DNA of 64,000 bases. Source: Pseudomonas farsensis (GTDB taxonomy: Bacteria > Pseudomonadota > Gammaproteobacteria > Pseudomonadales > Pseudomonadaceae). The stretch lies in contig NZ_JABWRF020000001.1 in assembly GCF_014268805.2 (NCBI RefSeq), forward strand, positions 248,001-312,000, read 5' to 3'. Positions 10,001 through 23,956 of the stretch are shown here, piece by piece. The notes under the pieces were generated by a model, which saw nothing but the letters and a program-made list of their open reading frames with translations, was not told the origin of the DNA and searched no databases. How positions within the stretch are numbered: the first letter of the stretch is position 1; every line of letters starts with the position of its first letter. The translations under genes and the position numbers were made by a program.

Positions 10001-10274
10001 CGCCAACAGCCTCAACCTGCTCGGCAGCAACGCCACCACCCTCGCTGGCGTGATCAGCGGCACAGGTGGCCTGGTCAAGAGCGGCAGTGCCGGCCTGACC
10101 CTGAGCGGCAACAATACCTACAGCGGCGGCACCAGCCTCAATGCAGGCACCCTCACCGTCGGCAGCAACACCGCCTTGGGCACCGGCGCGCTGGCCCTGG
10201 CGGCAACGCCAACCTGGATGCCAGTGCTGTGGTCAGCCTGGCCAACGCCGTCAACCTCGCCAGCAACACCCTGA
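7029..10274 (+). CDS. N-terminal part of the giant autotransporter (signal peptide and first repeats)
   Basis: The GTG at 7029 has AAGGAG 6 bp before it. The first 38 or so residues form a signal peptide (MDRLVAARLPVRLSRLSF followed by a hydrophobic stretch). About eight NTYSGG-type repeats follow from about 8290. After ...GTGALAL the frame changes and the last 25 or so residues are nonsense before the stop. As it stands this fragment would be exported but has no barrel to anchor it. Confidence 0.75.
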   Translation: MDRLVAARLPVRLSRLSFAVSLATGALFASLAIEHAEAACTPAFPGAGASVSCSGQASLLGGTNSFSSSANNLNVTVVGGTTMGAPLLGAGMSLTGNNITFTNNGLIDPSVLGLIGGLTTGTIIGNTSNASTVVINNNASGVLKGTGGLLSANLLNLNGMALDVRNGAGGTTVINNAGTIGSDALASASVLTQDIPVIAVQGGGSVNMTNTGSIVGRAAFQAANSGGNTFTNAGSITGSLSMGANSANRFNAITGSSVSAGGGVGVELLVTSNPNLAFAAAGVIDGGAGGTNTLALQNAIGGGSGTTGTGSINAANYINFNRLIVDSGTWSLIGQVLGSNSQTTLNGGVLNFDNAAAFGSGSIIANGGSLLASAANLSLANAITLGGALTTGGANAMALNGVVSGTGSLIKTGIGVLNLGASNTYSGGTTLAGGGLNLGSATSLGSGALNVTGAATLQGSMPLVLSNAVSLNAALTLPGSNALGLGGVVSGTGSLIKSGSGNLTLSGANTYTGGTSLNAGTLIVGNNAALGTGALSLGANASLDASTAVSLANAISLAGNTLTLPGTSAMTLGGVISGAGGLVKNGAAGLTLNASNTFSGGTLLNAGTLTVGSSAALGTGALTLGGNASLDANTTVNLGNAVSLGSNTLTLPGSAATTLSGVISGTGALTKNGGSTLTLSGANTFSGGLNLNAGTLTLASAAALGTGALNVGGAATLGNSAAMTLTNAVNLNANLTLPGANGMVLAGNISGTGGLIKNGSGALTLSGNNTQTGATALNVGTLIIGSNTGLGSGALNAAAGTTLDTSAANLNLANQLNLAGSLILPGSNNLTLSGVVAGAGGLTKNGNTTLTLTAANTNTGATNLNAGSLVLGNNAALGSGALIAAGGTSLDASTAVNVGNALTLGGALTLGGSANLGLGGVIGGSGSLIKNGSAGLSLSGNNTYSGGTTLNAGTVTVGSNTALGSGALTLGGSASLDASTAVALGNAVNLGANSLNLLGSNATTLAGVISGTGGLVKSGSAGLTLSGNNTYSGGTSLNAGTLTVGSNTALGTGALALAATPTWMPVLWSAWPTPSTSPATP

Positions 10275-13200
10275 CCCTGCTGGGCAGCAGCGCCACGACC
10301 CTGGCCGGTGTGATCAGCGGCAGCGGTGGCCTGGTCAAGAACGGCAGCGCCAGCCTGACGCTGAACGGCACCAACACCTACAGCGGTGGTACTACGCTGA
10401 ATGCCGGCACGCTGATCGTTGGCAACAACGGCGCTTTAGGTACCGGTGCGCTGGCACTGGGCGGCAACGCCAGCCTGGATGCGAGCAGTGCAGTCACCCT
10501 GGCCAACCTCGTCGACCTCGGTGCCAACACCCTCAATGTGCTCGGCACCAGCGCCACCACGCTGGGCGGCGTAATCAGCGGTAGCGGCGGGTTGATCAAA
10601 AGCGGCAGCGCCAGCCTGACCCTGAACGGCAACAACACTTACAGCGGCGGTACCACGCTCAATGCGGGCACGCTGCTCGTTGGCAACAACGCCGCCTTGG
10701 GCACGGGCGCGCTGGCCTTGGGCGGCAACGCCAACCTGGATGCCAGCACGGCGGTCAACCTGGCCAACGCGGTCAACCTCGGCGCCAACAGCCTCAACCT
10801 GCTCGGCAGCAACGCCACCACCCTGGCGGGTGTAATCACTGGCAGCGGGACCTTGGTCAAGAACGGCAGCGCCAGCCTGGCGCTGAACGGCGCCAACACC
10901 TACAGCGGTGGTACCACGCTCAATGCCGGCACCCTGATCGTCGGCAATAACGCTGCGTTGGGCAGCGGCGCGCTGACCCTGGGCGGCAACGCCAGCCTGG
11001 ATGCCAGCACGGCGGTCACCCTGGCCAATGCCGTCAACCTCGGCAGCAATACGCTGACCTTGCCAGGCAGTTCGGCAACCACCTTGGGCGGCGTGATCAG
11101 CGGCAGCGGGGGCCTGGTCAAGAACGGCAGCAGCAACCTGACCCTCGGCGCCAGCAACACCTACAGCGGCGGCCTGACCCTGAACGCCGGCACCCTGACC
11201 TTGGCCAATGCCGCAGCCCTGGGCACCGGTGCGTTGACTGTCGGCGGTGCCTCGACCCTGGCCAACAGCGCTGCGATGAGCGTCGCCAATGCTGTGAACC
11301 TTGGCGCCAACCTGACCCTCGCCGGCGCCAACGACCTGACCCTTGCCGGCAACCTCAGCGGCACTGGCGAGCTGATCAAGAACGGCAGCGCCGCGCTCAC
11401 CCTCAGCGGCGCCAACACCCAAAGCGGCAGCACCACGTTGAATGCCGGCACGCTGATCCTGGGTAGCAACACTGCGCTGGGAAGCGGCGTTTTGAACGCT
11501 GGCGCCAACACCCGCCTGGACAGCAGCATCGCCGGTCTGAACATCGCCAACAACCTCAACCTGGGCGGCACCCTGAACCTGGTGGGCAGCAACGACCTGG
11601 CGCTGAGCGGGGTGATTGCGGGCGTAGGCGGGCTGAGCAAGGACGGCAATGCCACCTTGACCCTCAACGGTGCCAACACCTACTTCGGTAACACCAACCT
11701 CAACGCCGGCACCCTGGTGCTCGGCAATGCCGCAGCCCTCGGTGCGGGCGCACTGAACGCCGCCGCCGGCACCCACCTGGACGCCAACACCGCGCTCACG
11801 GTGGGCAATGCGCTGAACCTGGCCGGCGTGGTGACCGTCGATGGCAGTGCCGATCTCGGCCTGAGCGGCTTGGTCGCAGGCGCAGGCAGCCTTATCAAGA
11901 ATGGCGCCAGCACCCTTACTTTGAGCAATGCCAATACCTACCTGGGCGGCACCACCCTCAACGCCGGGGCGCTGGTGCTCGGCAACGCAGGCTCGCTCGG
12001 CAGCGGCAAACTCACCGTGGCCGGCGCCGGTAGCCTGGACACCACCACTGCGCTCAATCTGGGCAACGCCATCACTCTCAACGATGACCTGACCCTGGCC
12101 GGCAGCCAGGCCCTGACCCTTGGCGGCCTGATCGACGGCAGCGGCGGCCTGGTCAAGAACGGCAACAGCACCCTCACGCTCACCAACAACAACACCTACA
12201 GCGGCGGCACCACGCTCAACGGCGGCGGGCTGATACTGGGCAACGGCAGCGCAATCGGCAGCGGCGCGCTGAATGTAGCCGCCAACGCGAGCCTGGACAC
12301 CAGCGATGTGTTCGGCCTGGGCAACGCGATCAACCTGGGCGCCGACCTGACCTTGGTGGGCAGCAGCAACCTGGCCCTGAATGGCACCATCAGCGGCGCC
12401 GGGCAGTTGATCAAGAACGGCGCGGCCACCGTCACAATCAATGGCACCAACAGCTACAGCGGCGGCACCACGGTCAACGCCGGCGGGCTGGTTGTCGGCA
12501 ACGACAGCGCTCTGGGCAGCGGCGCCCTGACCATTGCCGGTGCCGCCAGCCTGGACAACAGCGCAGTCGTCGACCTGGGCAACGCGGTAGTGCTGGGCAA
12601 TGACCTGACCCTCGGCGGCAGCAACGACCTGACCCTGAGCGGGTCCATCAGCGGCGCCGGCGGGCTGATCAAGAACGGCCTGGCCGACCTCACCCTGAGC
12701 GGCAACAACAGCTTCACCGGGGCGATTGACCTGGCCAGCGGCAGCCTGACCACCATTGGCAGCAACGCCTTGGGCAATGCCTCATCGCTGAATGTCGGCG
12801 CAGGCGCCAGCCTGAACCTGGGCAATAGCGCCAGCGTCGGCGGCCTGAGCGGCGGCGGGGGTGTCAACCTGGGGGCGGGCAGCAACCTCAGTGTGGGCAG
12901 TAACAACCTCGACAGCCTGTTCAGCGGTGTATTGGCCGGCAGCGGCGGGTTGATCAAAAACGGCAGCGGCAGCCTTGAGCTGTCTGGCACCAGCGCAATC
13001 GGCGGCGCAACCACGGTCAACGCCGGCCAGCTCAACGTCAGCGGCGCCCTCGCCACCAGCGGCGTGCAGGTCAACAGCGGCGCGACCCTGACCGGTGTCG
13101 GCAGCGTGCTCGGCGCGGTGGACATCGCCAATGGCGGGCATCTGGCGGCTAACAGCGGGGCCACCCTCAACACCGGCAGCCTCACCCTGCACAGCGGCTC

Positions 13201-16200
13201 GGTCTTCGATGTCGGCCTGGGCAGCCCGGCCACCGGCGGCACCGCGCTGGTCAGCGTCAACGGCAATCTCACCCTCGATGGCACGCTCAATGTGCGTGAT
13301 ATCGGCGGCTTTGGCGTAGGCGTGTATCGCCTGATCGACTACACCGGCACCCTGGTCGACAACGGCCTGAACATCGGCAGCGTGCCCGGCAGCGTCTTGC
13401 CTGGTGACCTGCAACTGCAAACCTCGATCGGCACCCAGCTCAACCTGCTGGTGGGCGGTGCAGCGGGCGGTGTGCAGTTCTGGGATGGCAACAACACCAT
13501 CGCCAACGGCGCCATCAATGGCGGCGTCGGCACCTGGAGCACCGGCAGCACCAACTGGACCAACGTCGGCGGCACCCTCAACAGCGCTTGGGGCGATACC
13601 TTCGCGGTGTTCCAGAATACCGGCGGCGATGTGACCGTGGTCGGCACCCAGGCGGCCACCGGCCTGCAATTCATGAACAATGGCTACCGCCTGGTGGGCA
13701 GCGGCGGTCTGACGCTGATGAACGGCAGCAACGGCGCCTTCGCCGTGCGCGTCGACCCGAACGTTACCGCCACCATTGACGTCGGCCTGTCTGGCGCCGG
13801 TACCCTTGGCAAGCTCGACACCGGTACGCTGATCCTCAACGGCGCCAATACCTACACCGGCGGCACCGCGCTGCAAGGCGGCACCTTGATCGTGGGCAGC
13901 AATACCGCCCTCGGCACCGGCCAGGTGAATGCGGCGGCCAACACCACCCTGGACAGCAACACCGCCGTCACCTTGGGCAATACCTTTGCCCTGGCCGGCC
14001 CGCTGACCATTGGCGGCACTGCCGACCTGGGCCTGAGCGGCATCGTTGCGGGCGCCGGCAGCCTTATCAAGAACGGCGCGGCCAACCTGACCTTGAGCAA
14101 TGCCAACACCTACGCAGGTGGCACCGTGCTCAACGCCGGCACCATCACCCTGGGCAACGCGCAGGCACTGGGCAGCGGCGCGCTGACCGTCAATGGCGGC
14201 AACCTCGGCAGCACCGGCAATTTCACCCTGGCCAACGCCATCGCGCTCAACGCCGACCTGGGCGTGAACGGCAGCAACAACCTCACGTTCAACGGCGTAC
14301 TCAGTGGCAACGGTGGCCTGGACAAGGCCGGCAGCGGTACCCTGACCCTCAACGGCACCAATACCTACCAAGGCGCAACCACCCTCAGCGGCGGCACGCT
14401 GATTCTGGGCAGCAACGCAGCGCTCGGCACCGGCACCCTGCAAGCGCAGGGCGGCACATTGGGCAGCAGCGTTAACCTGACGTTGGGCAACCAGATCGAC
14501 CTGCTCGGCAGCCTGACCCTGGCTGGCGCCCAGAACATGGTGCTCAACGGTGCCATTGGCGGCAGCGGCGAGCTGGTCAAGAGCGGCCCCGGCGTGCTGG
14601 CGCTCAACGGCAACAACACCTACCAGGGCGATACCCGGCTCAATGCCGGCACTCTGCTGCTGGGTAGCGACACCGCGCTGGGTACCAGCATCCTCAGCGC
14701 AGCGGCTGGCACCACGCTGGACAGCAGCGCTGACGTGAGCCTGGCCAATGCCGTGAACATCACCGGCAGCGTGACCGTCGCCGGCAGCAATGGCCTGAAC
14801 CTGGGCGGCGTGGCCAGTGGTGCAGGCGCGCTGGTCAAAAATGGCACCAGCAACCTCACCCTGGCCGGCGCCAACACCTACGCAGGCGGCACCGTGCTCA
14901 ATGCCGGCACGCTGACCCTTGGCAACAACCTTGCACTGGGTACGGGCGCGCTGACCGTCGCCAACGCGGCGAACCTTGCCACCAGCACCACGCTGAACAA
15001 CGTCACCAACCAGTTGTTGCTGAACGGCGACCTGACCCTGGCGGGTAATAACGATCTCGCCCTCAACGGCGTGATCAGCGGCCCGGAAGGGCTGATCAAG
15101 ACCGGCACCGGCAACCTGACCCTGGGCGCCGCCAACAGCTATGCCGGCGGCACGACCCTCGCTGCCGGCACGCTCACCTTGGGCAATGACAGCGCCCTTG
15201 GCAGCGGCAGCCTTGCGGTCACCGGCAACAGTACCTTGGGCAGCCTGGGCGTGTTGCAGGTGGGCAATGCCATCACCCTCGGCAACGCCGCCACGCTGGG
15301 CGTCGGAAATGCCCAGAGCCTCACCCTCAATGGCGTGATCAGTGGGCTTGGCGCGTTGGACAAACGGGGCACTGGCGAGCTGATCCTCAACGCTGGCAAC
15401 AGCTACAGCGGCGGTACCACGCTGCAGGCCGGCAGCCTGCTGCTGGGTAACGCCAGTGCGCTTGGCAGCGGCGCGCTCACTGTCACCGGCGCTGGCGCCC
15501 TTGACGCAAGCCAGGCGATGACCTTGGGCAATGCCATCAACCTGAGCGGCGCCGACCTTACCCTTGGCAACAGCTACGCGCTGACCCTCAACGGGGCGAT
15601 CGCCGGCACTGGCGGCCTGCTCAAGGATGGCAACGCCACGCTGACCCTCGGCGCGGCCAACACCTACAGCGGCGGCACCACCCTCAACGCCGGCACCCTA
15701 CTGGTCGGCAACAATGCCGCATTGGGGCAGGGCGGGCTGACCGTCGCTGGCGCCTCCACCCTTGGCAGCAGCGGCGCAACCGCACTGGCCAACGATGTCG
15801 TGCTCAACGCCGGGCTGACCGTCGCAGGCAGCAACGACCTGACCCTGGCCGGCACCCTCGCCGGCACTGGCAGCCTGAGCAAAACCGGCAACGCCACCCT
15901 GACCCTGAACGGCAGCAACACCTATCAGGGCGGCACCGAGCTTGCCGCCGGCACCCTGGTGCTGGGCAACAGCGCCGCACTGGGCGGCGCGGGCCTGAGT
16001 GTCACGGGCGATGCAACGCTGCGTAACAGCGTGGCAATGGTGCTGGCCAATAGCGTGGATGTGGCCGCCGGCACCCGCCTGACGTTGAACACCCTCAACG
16101 CCCTGACCCTCGCTGGCGATATCAGTGGCAGCGGCAGCTTGATCAAGACCGGCACTGCCGATGCGCTGCTGATCGGCAGCAAGAGCCTGACCGGTGATGT

Positions 16201-19200
16201 CGATATCGCCGCAGGTTCGCTGACCCTGCAAGGCGCCGGGGTGCTGGACAACGTCTCCGGGGTGAACGTCGGCAGCGCCGGCACCCTGAACCTCAATGGC
16301 GATGCGAACCTGGCCAGCCTCACCGGCAGCGGCAGCACCGTAATCGGCAACAGTGCCACCTTGAGCGTTGGCAGCAACGGCGCCGACAGCCTCTTCGCGG
16401 GCGCCTTCAGCGGCGCGGGCAACCTGGCCAAGGTCGGCACCGGCACCCTGACCCTGAGCGGCATCAGCAGCCTGCTGGGTAACAGCCAGGTCAACGCCGG
16501 CACGCTCAAAGTCGATGGCAGCCTGACCAGTGCCGGCCTCACGGTCGGCAATAGCGCCAGCCTCAGCGGCAGCGGTTACGTCGGTGGCCCGGTGATCATC
16601 GGCAGCGGTGGCCATCTGGTGGGCACCAGCAACAACACCCTTGGCCTCGGTGCGCTGGTGCTCGACAGCGGCGCCATCGTCGATGTCGGCCTGGCCGCGC
16701 CCTCCACCGGGGGCAACGCGCTGTTCCGCGTCGATGGCAACCTCACCCTCGACGGCACTCTCAACGTCAGCGATATCGGCGGCTTCGGCAACGGCGTGTA
16801 TCGGCTGTTTGACTACGGCGGTGCGCTGACCGACAACACCCTGGAATTCGGCAGCCTGCCGGGTGGATTGAACCTGGGCGACCTCAGCCTGCAAACCGCG
16901 ATTGCCCACCAGATCAACCTGCTGGTCGGCGCCAGCAGCCAGAGCATCCTGTTCTGGGACGGCAGCCAGACCACCGGCAACGGCCAGGTCAATGGCGGCA
17001 GCGGCACCTGGAATGCCGGCAACAGCAACTGGACCGACGTCAACGGCACCACCAATGGCACCTGGGACAGCAGCTTCGCGGTGTTCCAGGGCAGCGCCGG
17101 CAACGTCACGGTGGTCGGTGCGCAGAGCGTCAATGGCCTGCAATTCATGACTGACGGCTACCACCTGCTCGGCGGCGCGGGGGGAGCACTCAACCTGGTC
17201 AACGGCAGCACTGGCGACACCGCCGTGCGCGTCGACCCAGGCGCCACTGCCACCCTCGATGTGGCCGTCATCGGCACTGGCACCCTGGATAAACTCGACA
17301 CCGGCACCTTGGTACTCAACGGCAATAACAGCTACACCGGCGGCACCCTGCTCAGCGGCGGTACCTTGGTGGTGGGCAGCAATACCGCGCTGGGCACTGG
17401 CACGCTGAGCACCAGCGCCGCGACTACCCTGGACAGCAACAAGGCGGTCACCCTAGGCAACGAACTGGTGCTCGGCGGCCTGCTGAATATCGCAGGCAGC
17501 CATAACCTGACCCTCGACGGCGACATCAGCGGCAGCGGCGGCTTGGTCAAGGCCGGCACCGCCAGCCTGGAACTGGCCGGCAACAACAGCTACAGCGGCA
17601 ATACCGCGCTCAACGCCGGCAGCCTGATCGTAGGTTCCGACACCGCGCTTGGCAGCGGCACGCTGAATGCGGCGGCCAATACCAGCCTGCTCGGCAGCCA
17701 GGCCGTGACCTTGGCCAACAACGTCAGCATCGCTGGGCCATTCAACGTGCTCGGCAGCCATGACATCACCCTGGCCGGCACCTTGTCCGGCGCCGGCAGC
17801 CTGACCAAAAGTGGCAGTGGCAGCCTGGAACTCGACGGCGCCAACACCTACAGCGGCGGCACTGTGCTGCAGGCCGGCACCCTTGTGGTTGGCAATGACG
17901 CAGCGCTGGGCACTGGCAGCCTGAGCGTCACCGGCACCGGCAACCTCGATGCCAGCACCGCTACCACTCTGGGCAACGCCATCGCGGTCAGTGGCGTGCT
18001 CAACGTGCTCGGCAGCGAAGACCTGACCCTGGCTGGTGCGCTCAGTGGCGCCGGCACGCTCAACAAAAGCGGCCTGGCCGACCTGACGCTGTCGGGCAAC
18101 AACAGTTTCAGCGGCATCTTCAACCTCAACGCCGGCAGCCTGAGCACCCTGGGCACCACCAGCCTGGATACCCTCAGCGCACTCAACGTGGCCAGCGGCG
18201 CGGCCCTGAACCTTGCCGGCAACACCACCCTTGGCACCCTCGGTGGCAACGGCAGCGTGCAGATTGGCGCCGGCAACAGCCTGGGCGTGCAAGGCGGCAC
18301 CTTCGGCGGTGATATCGCAGGCACCGGCACCTTGATCAAACAAGGCACCGGCACCTTGACCCTGACCGGCAACAACAGCCTCACCGGCGTTACCAACGTG
18401 GATGGCGGCACCCTGCAAGTGAACGGCAGCCTGGCCAGCAGCACCGTCAATGTCGGCAGTGGCGCAAGCCTTGGCGGCAGCGGCAGCCTGGCGGGCACCG
18501 TGCTGGTCGGCAGTGGCGGTGCCCTGGCCGGCAGCAGCGGCAGCACGCTGAACGTCGGCAGCCTGAACCTGGGCAGCGGCTCGGTGTTCAACGCAGCCCT
18601 TGGCGCGCCCAACGCCAGCCCCGCGCTGGTCAACGTCACCGACAACCTGACCCTTGGCGGCACCCTCAACGTGACCGACATCGGCGGCTTCGGTGCTGGC
18701 GTCTACCGCCTGTTCGACTACGGCGGGGCGCTGACCAACAACGGCATGCAGATCGGCAGCTCACCCGTGCCACTCAGCGACCTGACCTTGCAGACCGCGG
18801 TGGCCAACCAGGTCAACCTGGTCGTGGGCGGCAGCAACAACGTGCTGTTCTGGGACGGCAGCCAGACCCTCGCCAACGGCGTGGTGAATGGCGGCAATGG
18901 CGTATGGAACGCCACTGACAGCAACTGGACCGACGCCAACGGCCTGGTCAACAGCGAGTGGAACGATACCTTCGCGGTGTTCCAGGGGGCGGCGGGCACG
19001 GTCACCGTCGATGGCAGCCACAACCTCAGCGGCATGCAGTTCGTCACCGACGGCTATGTGCTGCAAGGCGGTATCGATGGCGAACTGCTGAGCACCGGCA
19101 GCACCTATGTGCGGGTCGACCCCAGCAAGACAGCCACCCTCAACGTTGCCATCAACGGCACCGGTAGCCTGGTCAAGAACGACACCGGCACCTTGGTGCT

Positions 19201-20770
19201 CAACGCTGCCAATGGCTACAGCGGCGGCACCAGCCTTAATGGTGGCACCCTGGTGGTCGGCAACGACAGCGCGCTGGGCAGCGGCACCCTGACCGCCGCC
19301 GGCAATACCACGCTGGACAGCAACAGCGCGGTCACCCTGGCCAACGACGCTGTGCTGAACGGCGCCCTGAACATCGCCGGCAGCAACACGCTGGGGCTGG
19401 CTGGCGATATCAGCGGCAGCGGCGGCCTGGTCAAGAACGGCGCTGGCGAACTGACCTTGAGTGGCAGCAACAGCTACACCGGCGGCACCCGCATCAACGC
19501 CGGCAGCCTGGTGGGCGACAGCAGCAGCCTGCAAGGGGCGATCCTCAACAATGCCGCGCTGACCTTCGCCCAGGCGGGCAACGGCACCTACGCCGGCAAC
19601 CTCAGTGGCAGCGGCACCCTGGCCAAGACCGGCACCGGCGAGCTGCTGCTGACCGGCAACAACACCCTCACCGGCAACACCACCGTCAGTGCCGGCACGC
19701 TGTTGGTCAACGGCCGCCTGAACAGCGCCACTGTGCAGGTTGCCAGCGGCGCCACCCTGGGCGGCAATGGCACCCTCGCAGGTAACGTGCAGGTTGCCAA
19801 CGGCGGCACCTTGAGCGCCGGGCAGAGCGCCACGCCGCTGTCGCTCGGCAGCCTCAGCCTGGCCTCGGGCAGCACCCTGGACTTCGCCCTCGGCGCGGCC
19901 AGCGCCGCCACCACCGTGGTCAATGTGGCCGGCAACCTGACCCTCGACGGCACCCTGGACATTACCGATGCCGGCGGTTTCGGCCCGGGCGTGTACCGCC
20001 TGTTCAGCTATGGCGGCGCGCTGACCGACAACACCCTGGTATTCGGCGCCATCCCCGGCAGCGTCGCCTTGGGCGACCTCAGCCTGCAGACCGCCATCGC
20101 CAACCAGGTCAACCTGGTGGTGCAAGGGGCGGCGGGCGCGCTGCAATTCTGGAACGGCACCCAGACCACCCCTGACGGCAGCATCGTTGGCGGCAATGGC
20201 ACATGGGGCAGCGCCAGCAACTGGACCAACGCCACCGGCACCACCAGTGAAACCTCCGGGGGGCAGTTCGCCGTATTTGCCGGGCAGGCCGGGACCGTCA
20301 CCGTCCAGGGCAGCCAGGCGTTCACCGGCATGCAGTTCCTCACCAGCGGCTACCAGCTGGTGGCCGGCAACGCTGGCAGCCTGACCGCCGTCAACGCAAG
20401 CGACGGCAGCCAGGCCGTGGTGCGGGTAGACAGCGGCGCCACTGCGCTGATCAGCGCCCCCATCGTCGGCAGCGGCGGCATCGAAAAACTCGACGCCGGG
20501 TTGCTGCTGTTGTCCGGTGCCAACACCTACAGCGGCGGCACCACCGTCAGCGGCGGCACGCTGGCAGGCGACACCACCAGCCTGCAGGGCAGCATCGCCA
20601 ACAACGCAAGCCTGGTGTTCATGCAGGCCAGCAACGGCACCTTCAATGGCACCCTGAGCGGCAGCGGCACCACCGTCAAACAGGGCAACGGCACCTTGCT
20701 GCTGACCGGCAACCAGGCCAGCGGCGCCTTCAACGTCAACCAAGGCGTGCTGCAAGTGGGTAACACTGCC
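8290..20770 (+). repeat. Array of about 35-38 coding PATR-type repeats, period about 255-261 bp
   Basis: Successive units of 84-87 codons share the plan: strand motif NTYSGGTTLNAGTL, then VGNNAALGTGAL, then LDASTAV-LANAVNLG, then LTLPGS-ATTL-GVISG-GGLVKNGS. Adjacent units between 8290 and 11160 are the most alike, in places nearly identical at the DNA level, which points to recent unequal crossing-over or conversion. Spacing is interrupted by the FWDG modules. Confidence 0.85.
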
Positions 20771-22315
20771 AACCCCGGCGCTAACCTGGCCGCCGCCGTG
20801 AACGTGGCCAATGGCGCGATGCTCACTGGCACCGGCAGTGTCGCCAGCCTTAACAACCTCGGCACGGTGATGCCGGGGCAGGGCGGCAACCTCACGGTGG
20901 CCGGCAACTTCACCAACGGTGCCACCGGCACCCTGGCCATCGACATTACCAGCAACCCGGTGAGCTACCTGGCCGTCGGCGGCACCGCCAACCTGGGCGG
21001 CAGCCTGCAGGTGCTCAACCTCAGCGGTTTCACGGGCAGTGGGCAGTACACCGTGGTCAGTGCAACGGGCGGCATCAACGGTACCTTCGCCGGCACCAAC
21101 CTGAGCAATTCGGCGTTCCTCAGCACCTCGCTGGACTACAGCGCCAACCAGGTGACCCTGTCGGTAACGCGCAATGGTGCGAGCATGGGCAGCGTTGCCG
21201 GCACCCCCAACCAAGGTGGTGTCGCGGGCGCACTGACCGGCCCTGGCGCACCGCCCATGCTGGTTGACAATATCCTGCCGATGGCCACGGCGCAGGCGCA
21301 GGCCGCGTTCGACAGCCTGTCCGGTGAAATCCACGCCAGCACCGCTACCGTGCTGCTTGAGGATTCGCGCTACCTGCGCGACGCCGTCAACGACCGCATG
21401 CGCCAGGCCGATTGCAGCGCCGTCAACGACCCGCGCCGCACCCTGGCCCCCACCGCCAACCAGCAACTTACCGGCGAAGGCTGCCAAGGCCAGGCCGTGG
21501 GCTGGATGCGCGCCATCGGCGGCTGGGGCAGCTATGACGCCCGTGGCGGCGCGGCGTCTGTCGACCGGCAGTTGCAGGGCTTCATGCTGGGCGTGGACAA
21601 AGCGCTGGATGAGCAGTGGAAGCTGGGTATCGCGGCCGGCTACACCAATGCCAGCATCGACGCCAACCGCCGCGGCTCCGACGCGTCGGTGGACAGTTAT
21701 CACCTGGCCACCTACCTCAACTACCAGCTCGACGCCTTTGCCGCCCGGCTGGGTGCCGGTTACAGCTGGCACGACATCGAGACCAAGCGTGATGTCACCG
21801 TGGGCGCCTACAACGACCGCATCAAAGGCAAGTACAAGGCACGCACCGCCCAGGTGTTCGGCGAAGTGGGTTATGCCTTCGATGCCGGCGGCATTGCGGT
21901 TGAGCCGTTCGCGGGGCTTGCGTATGTCAACTATGACAGCGAGCACCTGCACGAGAAGGGCGATGCCGGGCGCCTGCATGGCAGCGTCGAGGAGGATGTC
22001 ACGTATTCCACCTTGGGTGTGCGCGTAGGCAAGCGCATCGAACTGAGCAAGGGCACCAGCGTGACGCCACGGTTGTCGGTGGGCTGGCGGCATGCGTTTG
22101 GCGACACCCAGGCGCAGACGGATGTGCGGTTTGTGGACGGCGGCGGCAGTTTCTCTACCTCAGGTGTACCGATTGCTCGTGACGCGGCCGTGGTCGAGGC
22201 AGGGTTGGATATGTCGGTGGGGCAGAACGGCAAGTTGGGGGTGGGGTATTCCGGGCAGGTGTCTAGCGGGGCGCGGGATCATGGAGTGGTGGTGAGCTTC
22301 AGTATGGGGTTCTGA
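10202..22315 (+). CDS. C-terminal part of the giant autotransporter (repeats, FWDG modules, beta-barrel)
   Basis: From base 10202 this frame continues the repeat exactly where the first part leaves it (GNANLDAS...). It runs for about 4,037 codons through about 29 more repeats, four FWDG modules, the linker around QAQAAFDSLSGEIHASTATV and the beta-barrel that starts near MRAIGGWGSYDARGG. The first possible initiator is GTG 10229, which has no ribosome site and no signal peptide, so independent production is unlikely. The barrel ends VVVSFSMGF. Confidence 0.75.
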   Translation, partial: GNANLDASAVVSLANAVNLASNTLTLLGSSATTLAGVISGSGGLVKNGSASLTLNGTNTYSGGTTLNAGTLIVGNNGALGTGALALGGNASLDASSAVTLANLVDLGANTLNVLGTSATTLGGVISGSGGLIKSGSASLTLNGNNTYSGGTTLNAGTLLVGNNAALGTGALALGGNANLDASTAVNLANAVNLGANSLNLLGSNATTLAGVITGSGTLVKNGSASLALNGANTYSGGTTLNAGTLIVGNNAALGSGALTLGGNASLDASTAVTLANAVNLGSNTLTLPGSSATTLGGVISGSGGLVKNGSSNLTLGASNTYSGGLTLNAGTLTLANAAALGTGALTVGGASTLANSAAMSVANAVNLGANLTLAGANDLTLAGNLSGTGELIKNGSAALTLSGANTQSGSTTLNAGTLILGSNTALGSGVLNAGANTRLDSSIAGLNIANNLNLGGTLNLVGSNDLALSGVIAGVGGLSKDGNATLTLNGANTYFGNTNLNAGTLVLGNAAALGAGALNAAAGTHLDANTALTVGNALNLAGVVTVDGSADLGLSGLVAGAGSLIKNGASTLTLSNANTYLGGTTLNAGALVLGNAGSLGSGKLTVAGAGSLDTTTALNLGNAITLNDDLTLAGSQALTLGGLIDGSGGLVKNGNSTLTLTNNNTYSGGTTLNGGGLILGNGSAIGSGALNVAANASLDTSDVFGLGNAINLGADLTLVGSSNLALNGTISGAGQLIKNGAATVTINGTNSYSGGTTVNAGGLVVGNDSALGSGALTIAGAASLDNSAVVDLGNAVVLGNDLTLGGSNDLTLSGSISGAGGLIKNGLADLTLSGNNSFTGAIDLASGSLTTIGSNALGNASSLNVGAGASLNLGNSASVGGLSGGGGVNLGAGSNLSVGSNNLDSLFSGVLAGSGGLIKNGSGSLELSGTSAIGGATTVNAGQLNVSGALATSGVQVNSGATLTGVGSVLGAVDIANGGHLAANSGATLNTGSLTLHSGSVFDVGLGSPATGGTALVSVNGNLTLDGTLNVRDIGGFGVGVYRLIDYTGTLVDNGLNIGSVPGSVLPGDLQLQTSIGTQLNLLVGGAAGGVQFWDGNNTIANGAINGGVGTWSTGSTNWTNVGGTLNSAWGDTFAVFQNTGGDVTVVGTQAATGLQFMNNGYRLVGSGGLTLMNGSNGAFAVRVDPNVTATIDVGLSGAGTLGKLDTGTLILNGANTYTGGTALQGGTLIVGSNTALGTGQVNAAANTTLDSNTAVTLGNTFALAGPLTIGGTADLGLSGIVAGAGSLIKNGAANLTLSNANTYAGGTVLNAGTITLGNAQALGSGALTVNGGNLGSTGNFTLANAIALNADLGVNGSNNLTFNGVLSGNGGLDKAGSGTLTLNGTNTYQGATTLSGGTLILGSNAALGTGTLQAQGGTLGSSVNLTLGNQIDLLGSLTLAGAQNMVLNGAIGGSGELVKSGPGVLALNGNNTYQGDTRLNAGTLLLGSDTALGTSILSAAAGTTLDSSADVSLANAVNITGSVTVAGSNGLNLGGVASGAGALVKNGTSNLTLAGANTYAGGTVLNAGTLTLGNNLALGTGALTVANAANLATSTTLNNVTNQLLLNGDLTLAGNNDLALNGVISGPEGLIKTGTGNLTLGAANSYAGGTTLAAGTLTLGNDSALGSGSLAVTGNSTLGSLGVLQVGNAITLGNAATLGVGNAQSLTLNGVISGLGALDKRGTGELILNAGNSYSGGTTLQAGSLLLGNASALGSGALTVTGAGALDASQAMTLGNAINLSGADLTLGNSYALTLNGAIAGTGGLLKDGNATLTLGAANTYSGGTTLNAGTLLVGNNAALGQGGLTVAGASTLGSSGATALANDVVLNAGLTVAGSNDLTLAGTLAGTGSLSKTGNATLTLNGSNTYQGGTELAAGTLVLGNSAALGGAGLSVTGDATLRNSVAMVLANSVDVAAGTRLTLNTLNALTLAGDISGSGSLIKTGTADALLIGSKSLTGDVDIAAGSLTLQGAGVLDNVSGVNVGSAGTLNLNGDANLASLTGSGSTVIGNSATLSVGSNGADSLFAGAFSGAGNLAKVGTGTLTLSGISSLLGNSQVNAGTLKVDGSLTSAGLTVGNSASLSGSGYVGGPVIIGSGGHLVGTSNNTLGLGALVLDSGAIVDVGLAAPSTGGNALFRVDGNLTLDGTLNVSDIGGFGNGVYRLFDYGGALTDNTLEFGSLPGGLNLGDLSLQTAIAHQINLLVGASSQSILFWDGSQTTGNGQVNGGSGTWNAGNSNWTDVNGTTNGTWDSSFAVFQGSAGNVTVVGAQSVNGLQFMTDGYHLLGGAGGALNLVNGSTGDTAVRVDPGATATLDVAVIGTGTLDKLDTGTLVLNGNNSYTGGTLLSGGTLVVGSNTALGTGTLSTSAATTLDSNKAVTLGNELVLGGLLNIAGSHNLTLDGDISGSGGLVKAGTASLELAGNNSYSGNTALNAGSLIVGSDTALGSGTLNAAANTSLLGSQAVTLANNVSIAGPFNVLGSHDITLAGTLSGAGSLTKSGSGSLELDGANTYSGGTVLQAGTLVVGNDAALGTGSLSVTGTGNLDASTATTLGNAIAVSGVLNVLGSEDLTLAGALSGAGTLNKSGLADLTLSGNNSFSGIFNLNAGSLSTLGTTSLDTLSALNVASGAALNLAGNTTLGTLGGNGSVQIGAGNSLGVQGGTFGGDIAGTGTLIKQGTGTLTLTGNNSLTGVTNVDGGTLQVNGSLASSTVNVGSGASLGGSGSLAGTVLVGSGGALAGSSGSTLNVGSLNLGSGSVFNAALGAPNASPALVNVTDNLTLGGTLNVTDIGGFGAGVYRLFDYGGALTNNGMQIGSSPVPLSDLTLQTAVANQVNLVVGGSNNVLFWDGSQTLANGVVNGGNGVWNATDSNWTDANGLVNSEWNDTFAVFQGAAGTVTVDGSHNLSGMQFVTDGYVLQGGIDGELLSTGSTYVRVDPSKTATLNVAINGTGSLVKNDTGTLVLNAANGYSGGTSLNGGTLVVGNDSALGSGTLTAAGNTTLDSNSAVTLANDAVLNGALNIAGSNTLGLAGDISGSGGLVKNGAGELTLSGSNSYTGGTRINAGSLVGDSSSLQGAILNNAALTFAQAGNGTYAGNLSGSGTLAKTGTGELLLTGNNTLTGNTTVSAGTLLVNGRLNSATVQVASGATLGGNGTLAGNVQVANGGTLSAGQSATPLSLGSLSLASGSTLDFALGAASAATTVVNVAGNLTLDGTLDITDAGGFGPGVYRLFSYGGALTDNTLVFGAIPGSVALGDLSLQTAIANQVNLVVQGAAGALQFWNGTQTTPDGSIVGGNGTWGSASNWTNATGTTSETSGGQFAVFAGQAGTVTVQGSQAFTGMQFLTSGYQLVAGNAGSLTAVNASDGSQAVVRVDSGATALISAPIVGSGGIEKLDAGLLLLSGANTYSGGTTVSGGTLAGDTTSLQGSIANNASLVFMQASNGTFNGTLSGSGTTVKQGNGTLLLTGNQASGAFNVNQGVLQVGNTANPGANLAAAVNVANGAMLTGTGSVASLNNLGTVMPGQGGNLTVAGNFTNGATGTLAIDITSNPVSYLAVGGTANLGGSLQVLNLSGFTGSGQYTVVSATGGINGTFAGTNLSNSAFLSTSLDYSANQVTLSVTRNGASMGSVAGTPNQGGVAGALTGPGAPPMLVDNILPMATAQAQAAFDSLSGEIHASTATVLLEDSRYLRDAVNDRMRQADCSAVNDPRRTLAPTANQQLTGEGCQGQAVGWMRAIGGWGSYDARGGAASVDRQLQGFMLGVDKALDEQWKLGIAAGYTNASIDANRRGSDASVDSYHLATYLNYQLDAFAARLGAGYSWHDIETKRDVTVGAYNDRIKGKYKARTAQVFGEVGYAFDAGGIAVEPFAGLAYVNYDSEHLHEKGDAGRLHGSVEEDVTYSTLGVRVGKRIELSKGTSVTPRLSVGWRHAFGDTQAQTDVRFVDGGGSFSTSGVPIARDAAVVEAGLDMSVGQNGKLGVGYSGQVSSGARDHGVVVSFSMGF
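13262..20500 (+). repeat. Four copies of a larger 'IGGFG-VYRLFDY ... FWDG' module within the autotransporter
   Basis: Copies begin near 13262, 16737, 18643 and 19930. Each has a beta-rich opening (LDGTLNV-DIGGFG-GVYRLFDY), a loop with LQTAIANQVNLLVG, then FWDG, GTW, SNWT, FAVFQG, VTVVG and GLQF--DGY-L, ending with VRVDP-ATA. They are the only parts of the passenger with several Trp residues, so they probably form a distinct fold punctuating the beta-helix. They are separated by PATR-type repeats. Confidence 0.8.
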
Positions 22316-22600: not shown

Positions 22601-22715
22601 TGTAGGAGCGGCCTTGTGTCGCGAAAGGGCTGCGAAGCAGCCCCTGGATATGTGCACCCACCAGAATCGCTGGGGCTGCTCCGCAGCCCTTTCGCGACAC
22701 AAGGCCGCTCCTACA
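22601..22715. repeat. REP inverted pair (REPIN), copy A
   Basis: Arms 22601-22644 and 22672-22715 are 44 bp each with a single mismatch, facing each other across 27 bp. The outer ends read TGTAGGAGCGGCCTTGTGTC. This is the abundant P. putida REP type; similar pairs are at 23709-23821 and 31100-31214. Confidence 0.9.
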
Positions 22716-22757
22716 CTGACCGCGTAGACGGCATCGATATGGGATGGGCGAGCTCTG

Positions 22758-22800: not shown

Positions 22801-23028
22801 GATAGGCGCTGAAAGGCCCATGGCGGACACCTGTAAGCCCTGACGCCACCTCAAACCGAACATCCCGCCGCCACCCCGCCCCCTCTGTAAGACATTTCCC
22901 AAACTGAAACCAAATCCTTCAGTCCCAAACCCATTCGGACCTATCCTACGCCCCTGTCGGAAATCGCCGAATTGGCGGGGAAATACACCGGGGTTAACTT
23001 CGCGGGGTCGTCACATTTGGCGACCGGG
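22801..23028 (+). other. Gene-free stretch before the DUF6124-like gene
   Basis: No open frame here looks like a real protein, and no RNA gene is recognisable. Together with the REP zone before it, about 890 bp between the autotransporter and the next gene carry only repeats and the leader described next. Confidence 0.5.
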
Positions 23029-23210
23029 TGTGAGAAGCCCGTTGTAACCCACCATCTGGCTTTCCATTTTATGGCAGTCGTGCGCGTGCGGGCTTTCGCC
23101 CGGCCGTGGCTTGATGGTGTCTACACGGTCTTCTCACCATGCGTACGACTGCCACCCTTGTCTGTGAGAAGGATGGAGGTGGTTGTTTCCATTAGTTACT
23201 AGGAGACACC
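23029..23210 (+). promoter_or_regulatory. Structured 5' leader of the DUF6124/DUF3077-like gene pair (candidate cis-regulatory RNA)
   Basis: A 10-bp perfect stem, TGGCAGTCGT (23072-23081) with ACGACTGCCA (23145-23154), encloses a second hairpin CGGGC-TTTC-GCCCG (23089-23102). The 3' arm of the outer stem overlaps another possible hairpin, CCACC (23152-23156) with GGTGG (23178-23182) and an inner CCTT/AAGG, so two alternative folds compete just before the ribosome site AGGAG (23201-23205). TGTGAGAAG occurs twice, at 23029 and 23163. I recall leaders with this look before similar small genes in other Pseudomonas, but know no named RNA family for it. Confidence 0.55.
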
Positions 23211-23456
23211 ATGAAAAAATTAGTACCAGATCCCCCTTGCCCAACCCACTACCTGAAAATCATCAACGCCCTCCCACCCGCCGAAGCCATGGCCCAAGCC
23301 GCCACGCTGATGGACACCCTGGCAACCACCGTCCACGACTATGCCCAATGCCCCCCAGAGCACCGCTCGCAAAGCACGCTCGACACCGCCATCGTTCTTT
23401 CACAGTTGGTCATCGTGTTGGTAGACCATGCCGTCGCCGAGCAGGCATCCATATGA
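23211..23456 (+). CDS. Small DUF6124-like protein
   Basis: An 81-residue acidic-to-neutral protein starting MKKLVPDPP, the usual opening of the Pseudomonas DUF6124 family. It then has a helical part with APAEAMAQAATLMDTLATTVHDYA, of the kind found in these proteins. No function is known to me. The ATG has TAGGAGACACC before it, a strong ribosome site. The stop overlaps the next start by four bases (ATGA), so the two are translated together. A structured leader precedes it. Confidence 0.75.
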   Translation: MKKLVPDPPCPTHYLKIINALPPAEAMAQAATLMDTLATTVHDYAQCPPEHRSQSTLDTAIVLSQLVIVLVDHAVAEQASI

Positions 23457-23713
23457 ACGAGCCCCGGTCCTGTGGGACCGCAGGTGCCGAAACCTTCCTT
23501 GACCTGTTCTGCATCAAGCCGGGCATCCCGTTCGAGCGCGCGTTCGACGAGCTGTCGGTGTTACTGGGCTGCATCCGTCACCTGACCGCCGAGGCCGAAC
23601 TGGAAAGCGACCTGCTGGCCGGCAGCGCTGCGCGCATTCTGAGCGCAATGGCCAAGGCATTGATCAATGACCTGGAACGCGGCATGCGGCGCAATCGACG
23701 CGATCCCGTGTAG
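23453..23713 (+). CDS. Small DUF3077-like protein
   Basis: An 86-residue protein containing FLDLFCIKPGIPFERAFDELSVLLGC, the pattern of the Pseudomonas DUF3077 family, followed by two helices and a basic tail (GMRRNRRDPV). Function unknown. The start at 23453 is inside the stop of the preceding gene (ATGA). The stop codon TAG at 23711-23713 is the TAG of TGTAGGAGCGG, that is, it is supplied by the REP element that begins at 23709, so the C-terminus may have been reshaped by that insertion. Confidence 0.75.
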   Translation: MNEPRSCGTAGAETFLDLFCIKPGIPFERAFDELSVLLGCIRHLTAEAELESDLLAGSAARILSAMAKALINDLERGMRRNRRDPV

Positions 23714-23821
23714 GAGCGGCCTTGTGCCGCGAAGGGCTGCAAAGCAGCCCCCGCCACTCTGCATGATGCGAAGATCCTGGGGCTGCTCCGCAGCCCTTCG
23801 CGGCACAAGGCCGCTCCTACA
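23709..23821. repeat. REP inverted pair (REPIN), copy B, overlapping the upstream stop codon
   Basis: Arms 23709-23751 and 23779-23821 (43 bp each) are nearly perfect inverted copies of the TGTAGGAGCGGCCTTGTGCC family. The left end overlaps the last codons of the DUF3077-like gene. Confidence 0.9.
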
Positions 23822-23956
23822 CGCAACCGCGTAAGACCGCATCGATATAGCGCACGCCCGAAGCCCTTCTCCATACCCTCCGTCTTTCGACGGGTACCTG
23901 CAAACCGCCGCTGACGCTAGACTGTCATCTTTCCCACATCGGACAGGAGTCCCGGC

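Follow-up and report, generated by a model that had tools for sequence, protein, structure and literature searches.

The leader in front of two small overlapping genes of Pseudomonas farsensis is a C4 antisense RNA, a known Rfam class, in what is apparently a new variant on a host chromosome. C4 is a textbook example of a phage RNA, with P1 and P7 as its main sources. The Pseudomonas leader has the family membership, anatomy, complementarity, covariation and distribution of this class, and it very probably encodes a C4 like that of the phage P1/P7 immI operon, holding down translation of the two downstream genes. A sequence-only reading of positions 23029-23210 of the window (the whole stretch of 64,000 nucleotides analysed) had seen a riboswitch or attenuator design at this site. 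What is conserved is antisense pairing with the ribosome site and not ligand sensing, and the C4 assignment corrects this plausible riboswitch call.

Identity and fold of the leader

A cmscan search matches the C4 model (RF01695) over its full length at 23067-23159 (+), with 61.1 bits against a gathering score of 45 (E 2.3e-9), and a whole-genome search recovers the same C4. It is one of two Rfam hits over threshold in the whole window, the other being a tRNA elsewhere. A permissive Rfam scan of 22900-23300, up to E 1, returns nothing besides C4 and c4-a1b1, and no ligand-binding core of any described riboswitch class. The leader had been put forward as a candidate for an undescribed system, of no class known by name, with an Rfam search proposed for it; that search supplies the name, together with a part upstream that resembles c4-a1b1 (RF03163) and falls below threshold. 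The functional unit exceeds 23029-23210, starting near 22994 and ending at the gene 1 start codon (Table 1).

Folding the 182-nt stretch yields -73.9 kcal/mol, whereas its shuffles average -57.8 (sd 4.3, z -3.7), and none of the 200 shuffles equals it. The perfect 10-bp outer stem reported before (23072-23081 with 23145-23154) is present inside the 17-bp stem P1, and the inner CGGGC-TTTC-GCCCG hairpin is stem P2. The earlier reading overlooked stem P3 with its antisense loop, the 9-bp and 8-bp matches in the leader, and the leader before 23029, with the a1/b1 region from 22994.

Table 1. Features of the C4 leader and the genes behind it (positions in the window)
Feature	Position	Strand	Remarks
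Putative promoter TTGGCG-N17-TAACTT	22972-22977 and 22995-23000	+	prediction, read by eye
c4-a1b1-like leader hairpins (RF03163)	22994-23045	+	28.0 bits, gathering 46.7, E 3.4e-5 in a 401-base search
a1 site GTGAGAAG	23030-23037	+	loop of a CGGG/CCCG hairpin; complementary to a'
b1 site CACCATC	23050-23056	+	7 bp, complementary to part of the P3 loop (b')
C4 stem P1	23072-23088 / 23138-23154	+	17 bp; outer 10 bp perfect, continued by G-U pairs
C4 stem P2	23089-23102	+	CGGGC-TTTC-GCCCG
C4 stem P3	23104-23108 / 23124-23128	+	loop 23109-23123 holds b'
b' antisense element ATGGTGTCT	23114-23122	+	9-bp perfect complement of b2
a' antisense element CTTCTCAC	23130-23137	+	junction strand; 8-bp perfect complement of a2 and a1
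Alternative hairpin CCACC/GGTGG	23152-23182	+	present, weakly conserved
a2 target site GTGAGAAG	23164-23171	+	just 3' of C4; complementary to a'
b2 target site AGACACCAT	23204-23212	+	complementary to b'
Gene 1	23211-23456	+	81 aa, N-terminus MKKLVPDPP; divergent DUF6124/DUF3077 superfamily member; predicted helical hairpin
Pro-Asp-Pro-Pro, gene 1 codons 6-9	23226-23237	+	[DN]PP motif
Gene 2	23453-23713	+	86 aa, DUF3077 (PF11275); ATGA overlap with gene 1; predicted helical hairpin

The expectation that a structured leader recurs before small Pseudomonas genes of these families is borne out, and covarying pairs are found among the homologous leaders. In 56 C4s from 12 genomes, hand-chosen out of 103 non-redundant ones, 96.7% of the cells of the 28-pair structure are paired and 20 of the 28 pairs have two-sided changes. 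The stem covariation score is 0.480, compared with 0.243 for shuffled alignments and 0.046-0.134 with slid partners. P3 is the weakest of the three stems, with 90.3% and 80.7% of cells paired. The conservation of the C4 region and the promoter-like box picked out by eye speak against a putative mRNA start after 23154.

The competing hairpin that shares bases with the outer stem (CCACC 23152-23156 with GGTGG 23178-23182) is there as described. As a covarying switch it is unsupported, with no convincing co-variation. The 3' strand of P1 pairs with its own leader at -15.3 kcal/mol and with shuffled leaders at -11.9, and beats all 20 shuffles in 39 of 154 loci; its own leader is barely better than the leaders of other loci (p 0.036).

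Antisense elements and their target sites

The elements carry the names used for phage P1. There a', the strand that joins P3 to P1, pairs with a2 immediately downstream of C4, and b' (the P3 loop) pairs with b2 over the ribosome site. In the window, b2 covers the end of the SD (AGGAG, 23201-23205) and the AT of the gene 1 start codon (23211-23213). With loop and leader shuffled, a 9-bp b'-b2 match arises by chance in a fraction 0.0004 of 5,000 trials, and with the junction strand shuffled an 8-bp a' match arises in 0.016. Accessibility of the SD region across 135 loci is below that of shuffled sequences (0.36 vs 0.47 unpaired).

The a'-a2 helix was compared in 18 leaders, comprising the window and 17 of 20 named near loci (three near-duplicates were left out). 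Here 143 of 144 cells are paired, and the score of 0.203 (0.100 in shuffles) is reached by none of 500 shuffles; only two of the eight pairs change on both sides (with U-A, C-G and G-C states), 50 of the 500 shuffles match this number of two-sided pairs and 223 the number of pair types, and a +1 slide scores 0.188. For b'-b2 in the 18 nearest loci, the own pairing averages -13.7 kcal/mol and the non-cognate -8.8, with the own site best in 8 of 18 and one locus (L295) showing no good b'-b2 pairing (-5.5).

A larger set of 154 loci combines the best 150 of 181 matches (down to ~63 bits) with four of the own genome, near-duplicates included. The P3 loop pairs with its own leader at -14.3 kcal/mol and with the leaders of other loci at -9.1 (p 4e-58), and the reversed-loop control gives -9.0 vs -8.3 (p 0.011); these p-values overstate independence, because the loci are related. 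The own leader is the best within its genome for the P3 loop of 92 of 154 loci. For a' the values are -12.2 (own) and -9.8 (others), and the own leader is best in the genome for only 30 of 154. Orthogonality is only partial, since a' alone discriminates poorly and, in the richest genome (G005), no more than 13 of 34 P3 loops have their own leader as top partner. Duplexes of <= -11 kcal/mol reaching into positions -13 to -5 relative to the start codon are formed by 110 of 153 own pairs and 113 of 765 non-cognate draws. Pairing with the upstream copies is locus-specific as well (a'-a1, -19.2 vs -14.4; b'-b1, -13.2 vs -11.2). Across these comparisons b' tends to follow its own b2.

The upstream a1 and b1 sites of the window are complementary to the antisense elements, and their RF03163 score is under the gathering value. 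The -10-like TAACTT box of the putative promoter coincides with the CUAguCU start of the RF03163 consensus; a consensus scanner reports no promoter at the window leader. No terminator-like site lies between a1b1 and C4 in the window, and by a crude test such a site is present at 20 of 116 DUF loci and 14 of 38 other loci. The motif TATCCTACG at 22942-22950, upstream of the putative promoter, is shared with three other loci (L002, L065 and L102) and occurs in 15 of 136 non-redundant C4 upstream regions and in one shuffled region; it is possibly a common operator. Long REP-like palindromes (GTAGGAGCGGCC...GGGGCTGC) at ~22602-22716 and 23710-23822 lie on both sides of the C4-gene 1-gene 2 unit. 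The same strand carries, further upstream, an open frame of 4,028 aa (10229-22315) whose sequence is highly repeated and looks autotransporter-like by eye.

Downstream genes and distribution

The two genes had been read as a DUF6124/DUF3077 pair. Gene 2 is indeed a DUF3077 protein by Pfam (E 2.4e-9, 37.7 bits, cut-off 21). The other half of the claim holds only at a wider level, as gene 1 stays short of the Pfam gathering score for DUF6124 (PF19619), with no match up to E 10, and only iterated profiles place it in the DUF6124/DUF3077 superfamily. These profiles, started from the window's genes, were built and counted on one and the same library of 468 ORFs, taken from behind the C4s, and their controls give 0 of 468 reversed hits and at most 1 of 2,340 shuffled ones. 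The models of gene 1 and gene 2 are two-helix hairpins; fold searches with gene 2 (PDB, BFVD) and gene 1 (PDB) return no match at E <= 0.001, and the listed fold hits are uninformative. In the literature searched, DUF3077/DUF6124 turns up in one paper, a furfural-tolerance study.

A DUF3077/DUF6124 gene lies downstream of 101 of the 154 C4s, with 0.2 expected by chance; iterated profiles place a superfamily gene behind 116 and none behind the other 38. There are 142 distinct DUF3077/DUF6124 loci in 13 genomes, and for 101 of them the matches listed include a same-strand C4 no more than 1 kb upstream. Thirteen of the remaining 41 loci were scanned: two have a C4, two have c4-a1b1 alone, seven have a PrrF sRNA, and two have none of these. 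The seven are DUF6124 genes that lie shortly before PrrF (RF00444) on the same strand, the sRNA following ~100-220 nt past the Pfam match (L237, L239, L241, L242, L243, L244 and L245, of which L239 is in the own genome at G000:C4:230413-230589, - strand). Gene 1 has 25 matches, counting the window's own, spread over 12 of 149 genomes, and 23 have a C4 upstream; of the other two, one lies at a contig end and one contains an internal stop. The named genomes with gene-1 matches are all Pseudomonas, presumably mostly species of the P. putida group, and there 20 of 20 matches have a C4, this set overlapping the 25 in part (some contigs are identical). Other C4s precede small proteins of different kinds, and Bro-N domain proteins also occupy the slot behind C4 (L023, L196).

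The N-terminal motif recurs across these proteins. [DN]PP occurs within the first 14 residues of 92 of 153 first ORFs behind C4, with D or N at residue 7 in 89 of 153, when ORFs are chosen without a bonus for the motif; an earlier choice that favoured the PDPP pattern gave 84 of 154 by a stricter pattern and 94 of 153 in a later count. The controls, which are ORFs and not verified genes, have it in 0 of 59 and 0 of 107 control ORFs, in 0 of 326 other mechanical ORFs and in 3 of 402 long ORFs. Selection acts on the protein, because 55 codon spellings of the motif occur among 94 loci. It is also found at the head of the Bro-N protein L196 (by Pfam) and of L117, a protein of another small family (by sequence only). 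A link to EF-P pausing is possible and counter-evidence exists; the available part of PMC4176338 does not settle the case of DPP or NPP.

C4 is present in 185 of 199 sampled Pseudomonas genomes, the own genome included, and in 183 it is over the Rfam cut-off, with at most 20 candidates scored per genome. Outside Pseudomonas, 17 of 273 other genomes of the class have C4, all over threshold at a stricter E-value. In 12 genomes hand-chosen mainly for few contigs, the matches range from 2 to 42 per genome and total 181. Of 99 Pseudomonas genomes, 90 have the upstream c4-a1b1, 79 of them over threshold. The own genome has four C4s, one of which (L002) heads a paralogous gene 1/DUF3077 pair. Two others (L001 and L004, C2:1501235-1501798) are tandem C4 RNAs ~390 nt apart, and the frame picked behind the second is only 46 aa. 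Four loci of genome G185 (L005, L069, L080 and L085) form a C4 subgroup with a different layout, in which the small protein picked ~133 nt past C4 seems to have a further short frame ahead of it.

Among 50,697 phage records there is no match to gene 1 or to one DUF3077 protein, and a pattern search of IMG/VR finds no close gene-1 relatives. One DUF6124 protein has a single phage match, near the end of a 22.7-kb record, and neither this protein nor window DNA 23029-23725 has a match among 72,556 plasmids. The RNA itself is on phages, since 32 Pseudomonas phage records contain a C4 by similarity to one Pseudomonas C4; in the three inspected, other genes follow it. Most simply read, the C4 RNA would have arisen in phages and been put to use by the host later. 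A comparison of the insertion site finds the GNAT gene in 3 of 29 genomes, the own included. The two relatives at this site have no C4 there and a different upstream sequence, and no empty site was obtained.

Proposed silencing, alternatives and related systems

Phage P1 immI (AF234172) and the window share the order a1, b1, C4, a2, b2, small gene and second gene, and a three-stem C4 with the SD-side loop in P3. The distance from the C4 end to the first gene start is 50 nt for icd and 51 nt for gene 1, and icd/ant1 overlap by ATGA as gene 1 and gene 2 do. In P1 a c4-a1b1 hairpin pair upstream of C4 presents the a1 site, and a c4-a1b1-like pair, below the RF03163 threshold (28.0 vs 46.7 bits), appears to do so in the window. 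Unlike immI of P1/P7, which is on phage, the window unit is on a host chromosome, and its b2 reaches the start codon, whereas that of P1 ends 10 nt before it. DUF6124/DUF3077-type proteins stand where P1 has Icd and Ant, the classic antirepressor target is absent, and Icd and Ant1 are unmatched by profiles of these proteins.

By this likeness, one transcript would bear a1/b1, C4, a2/b2 and both genes. C4 would fold into its three stems and probably be excised by RNase P as an RNA of ~77 nt, by analogy with phage P1. The a' strand and b' loop may then pair with a2 and b2 on the own or other transcript copies, blocking ribosome loading on gene 1, and gene 2 would also be shut down via translational coupling through the ATGA overlap. 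Translational silencing by C4 is described for phage P1 (PMC8198154 and PMC12197685, in the parts available).

Other explanations share some of this evidence. C4 could stay in the transcript as a cis-only attenuator, with a' and b' folding back onto their own a2 and b2 to form a pseudoknot that masks the ribosome site. Antisense and target are indeed less than 100 nt apart on one strand, and the SD region has the low accessibility given above. This is improbable, however, as the P1/P7 C4 undergoes processing and binds to target mRNAs, the C4-like sRNAs of A. baumannii look processed in RNA-seq (both from the available part of PMC5320573), and the cloverleaf is maintained with b' displayed in a hairpin loop. 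A role of C4 as RNA antitoxin for a growth-inhibiting small protein, similar to phage P1 Icd, would be compatible with C4 silencing, which leaves the role of the protein open. Gene 1 sits in the operon slot of icd, annotated as an inhibitor of cell division in the phage P1 record, and the copies per genome are many. Type I toxins are typically small membrane peptides. The predicted two-helix hairpins are unlike these, the profiles do not match Icd and Ant1, and one DUF6124 protein and the window DNA have no plasmid match, making such a toxin-antitoxin-like module rather unlikely.

That the unit is a functionless, decaying remnant of a prophage is very unlikely. Phages do have C4, with a relative of one Pseudomonas C4 in the 32 phage records; the stems and target sites nevertheless co-vary, the N-terminal motif is kept as protein through its 55 codon spellings, gene 1 is unmatched in the phage records and, by pattern search for close relatives, in IMG/VR, and nearly all sampled Pseudomonas genomes (185 of 199) have C4. 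A metabolite riboswitch or transcription attenuator is least probable of all, to the point of being nearly discounted. It would account for an alternative hairpin that uses outer-stem bases, but this hairpin has no convincing co-variation, the leader belongs to a named antisense family, the target-matching P3 loop is the most variable part of the alignment, and no terminator-like site is found at the window leader.

Beyond silencing by C4 at the window, Pseudomonas chromosomes might, as a tentative and rather speculative extension, run a domesticated phage-immunity circuit of up to dozens of P1-type C4s per genome, each largely specific to its own DUF6124/DUF3077 operon. A resident unit would then silence itself along with any newcomer that shares its specificity, in the manner of C4 in P1/P7 heteroimmunity. 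The P[DN]PP motif that the proteins have in common, fixed at residue 7, might modulate early elongation and in this way make the mRNA more sensitive to C4, and the proteins, which occupy the slot where phages keep antirepressors, may be anti-phage or bind phage regulators. A link of C4 to DUF6124/DUF3077, the multiplicity of C4 and the [DN]PP motif were not found in the literature searched, which did not extend to subscription papers and supplements, and a prior description is possible.

On Pseudomonas, C4 is a host-chromosome family of a large genus, with up to 42 matches per genome; a chromosome can hold dozens of copies, mostly before small genes of unknown function. As the specificity of the short loop tends to follow its own target, these loci are a natural set of antisense pairs for studying how RNA-RNA specificity diversifies. 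Deletion of C4 or expression of the proteins offers a regulatory handle on DUF6124 and DUF3077, both families of unknown function.

Related RNAs are described elsewhere. Pseudomonadales are among the bacteria with predicted C4, and the Group 1 C4-like sRNAs of A. baumannii (21 copies in the group) resemble those of Pseudomonas in their many chromosomal copies per genome and variable antisense loop (PMC5320573, available part). No own target gene is described for Group 1 in that part of the paper, whereas most copies here face a gene ~51 nt downstream. The c4-a1b1 motif is listed by Weinberg et al. 2010 (PMC2864571, available part). The isrK-orf45-anrP locus of Gifsy-1 is similar to the window in having a small RNA leader, a coupled small ORF and a second gene (PMC4825925 and PMC12197685, as far as available); unlike it, most chromosomal DUF loci have no terminator-like site between a1b1 and C4 by the crude test. 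In Pseudomonas phage PAJU2 (L276, 1918-1990), an Rfam isrK match upstream of C4 takes in the a1b1 region together with the T-run that follows, which suggests that the two models, isrK and c4-a1b1, capture one kind of leader.
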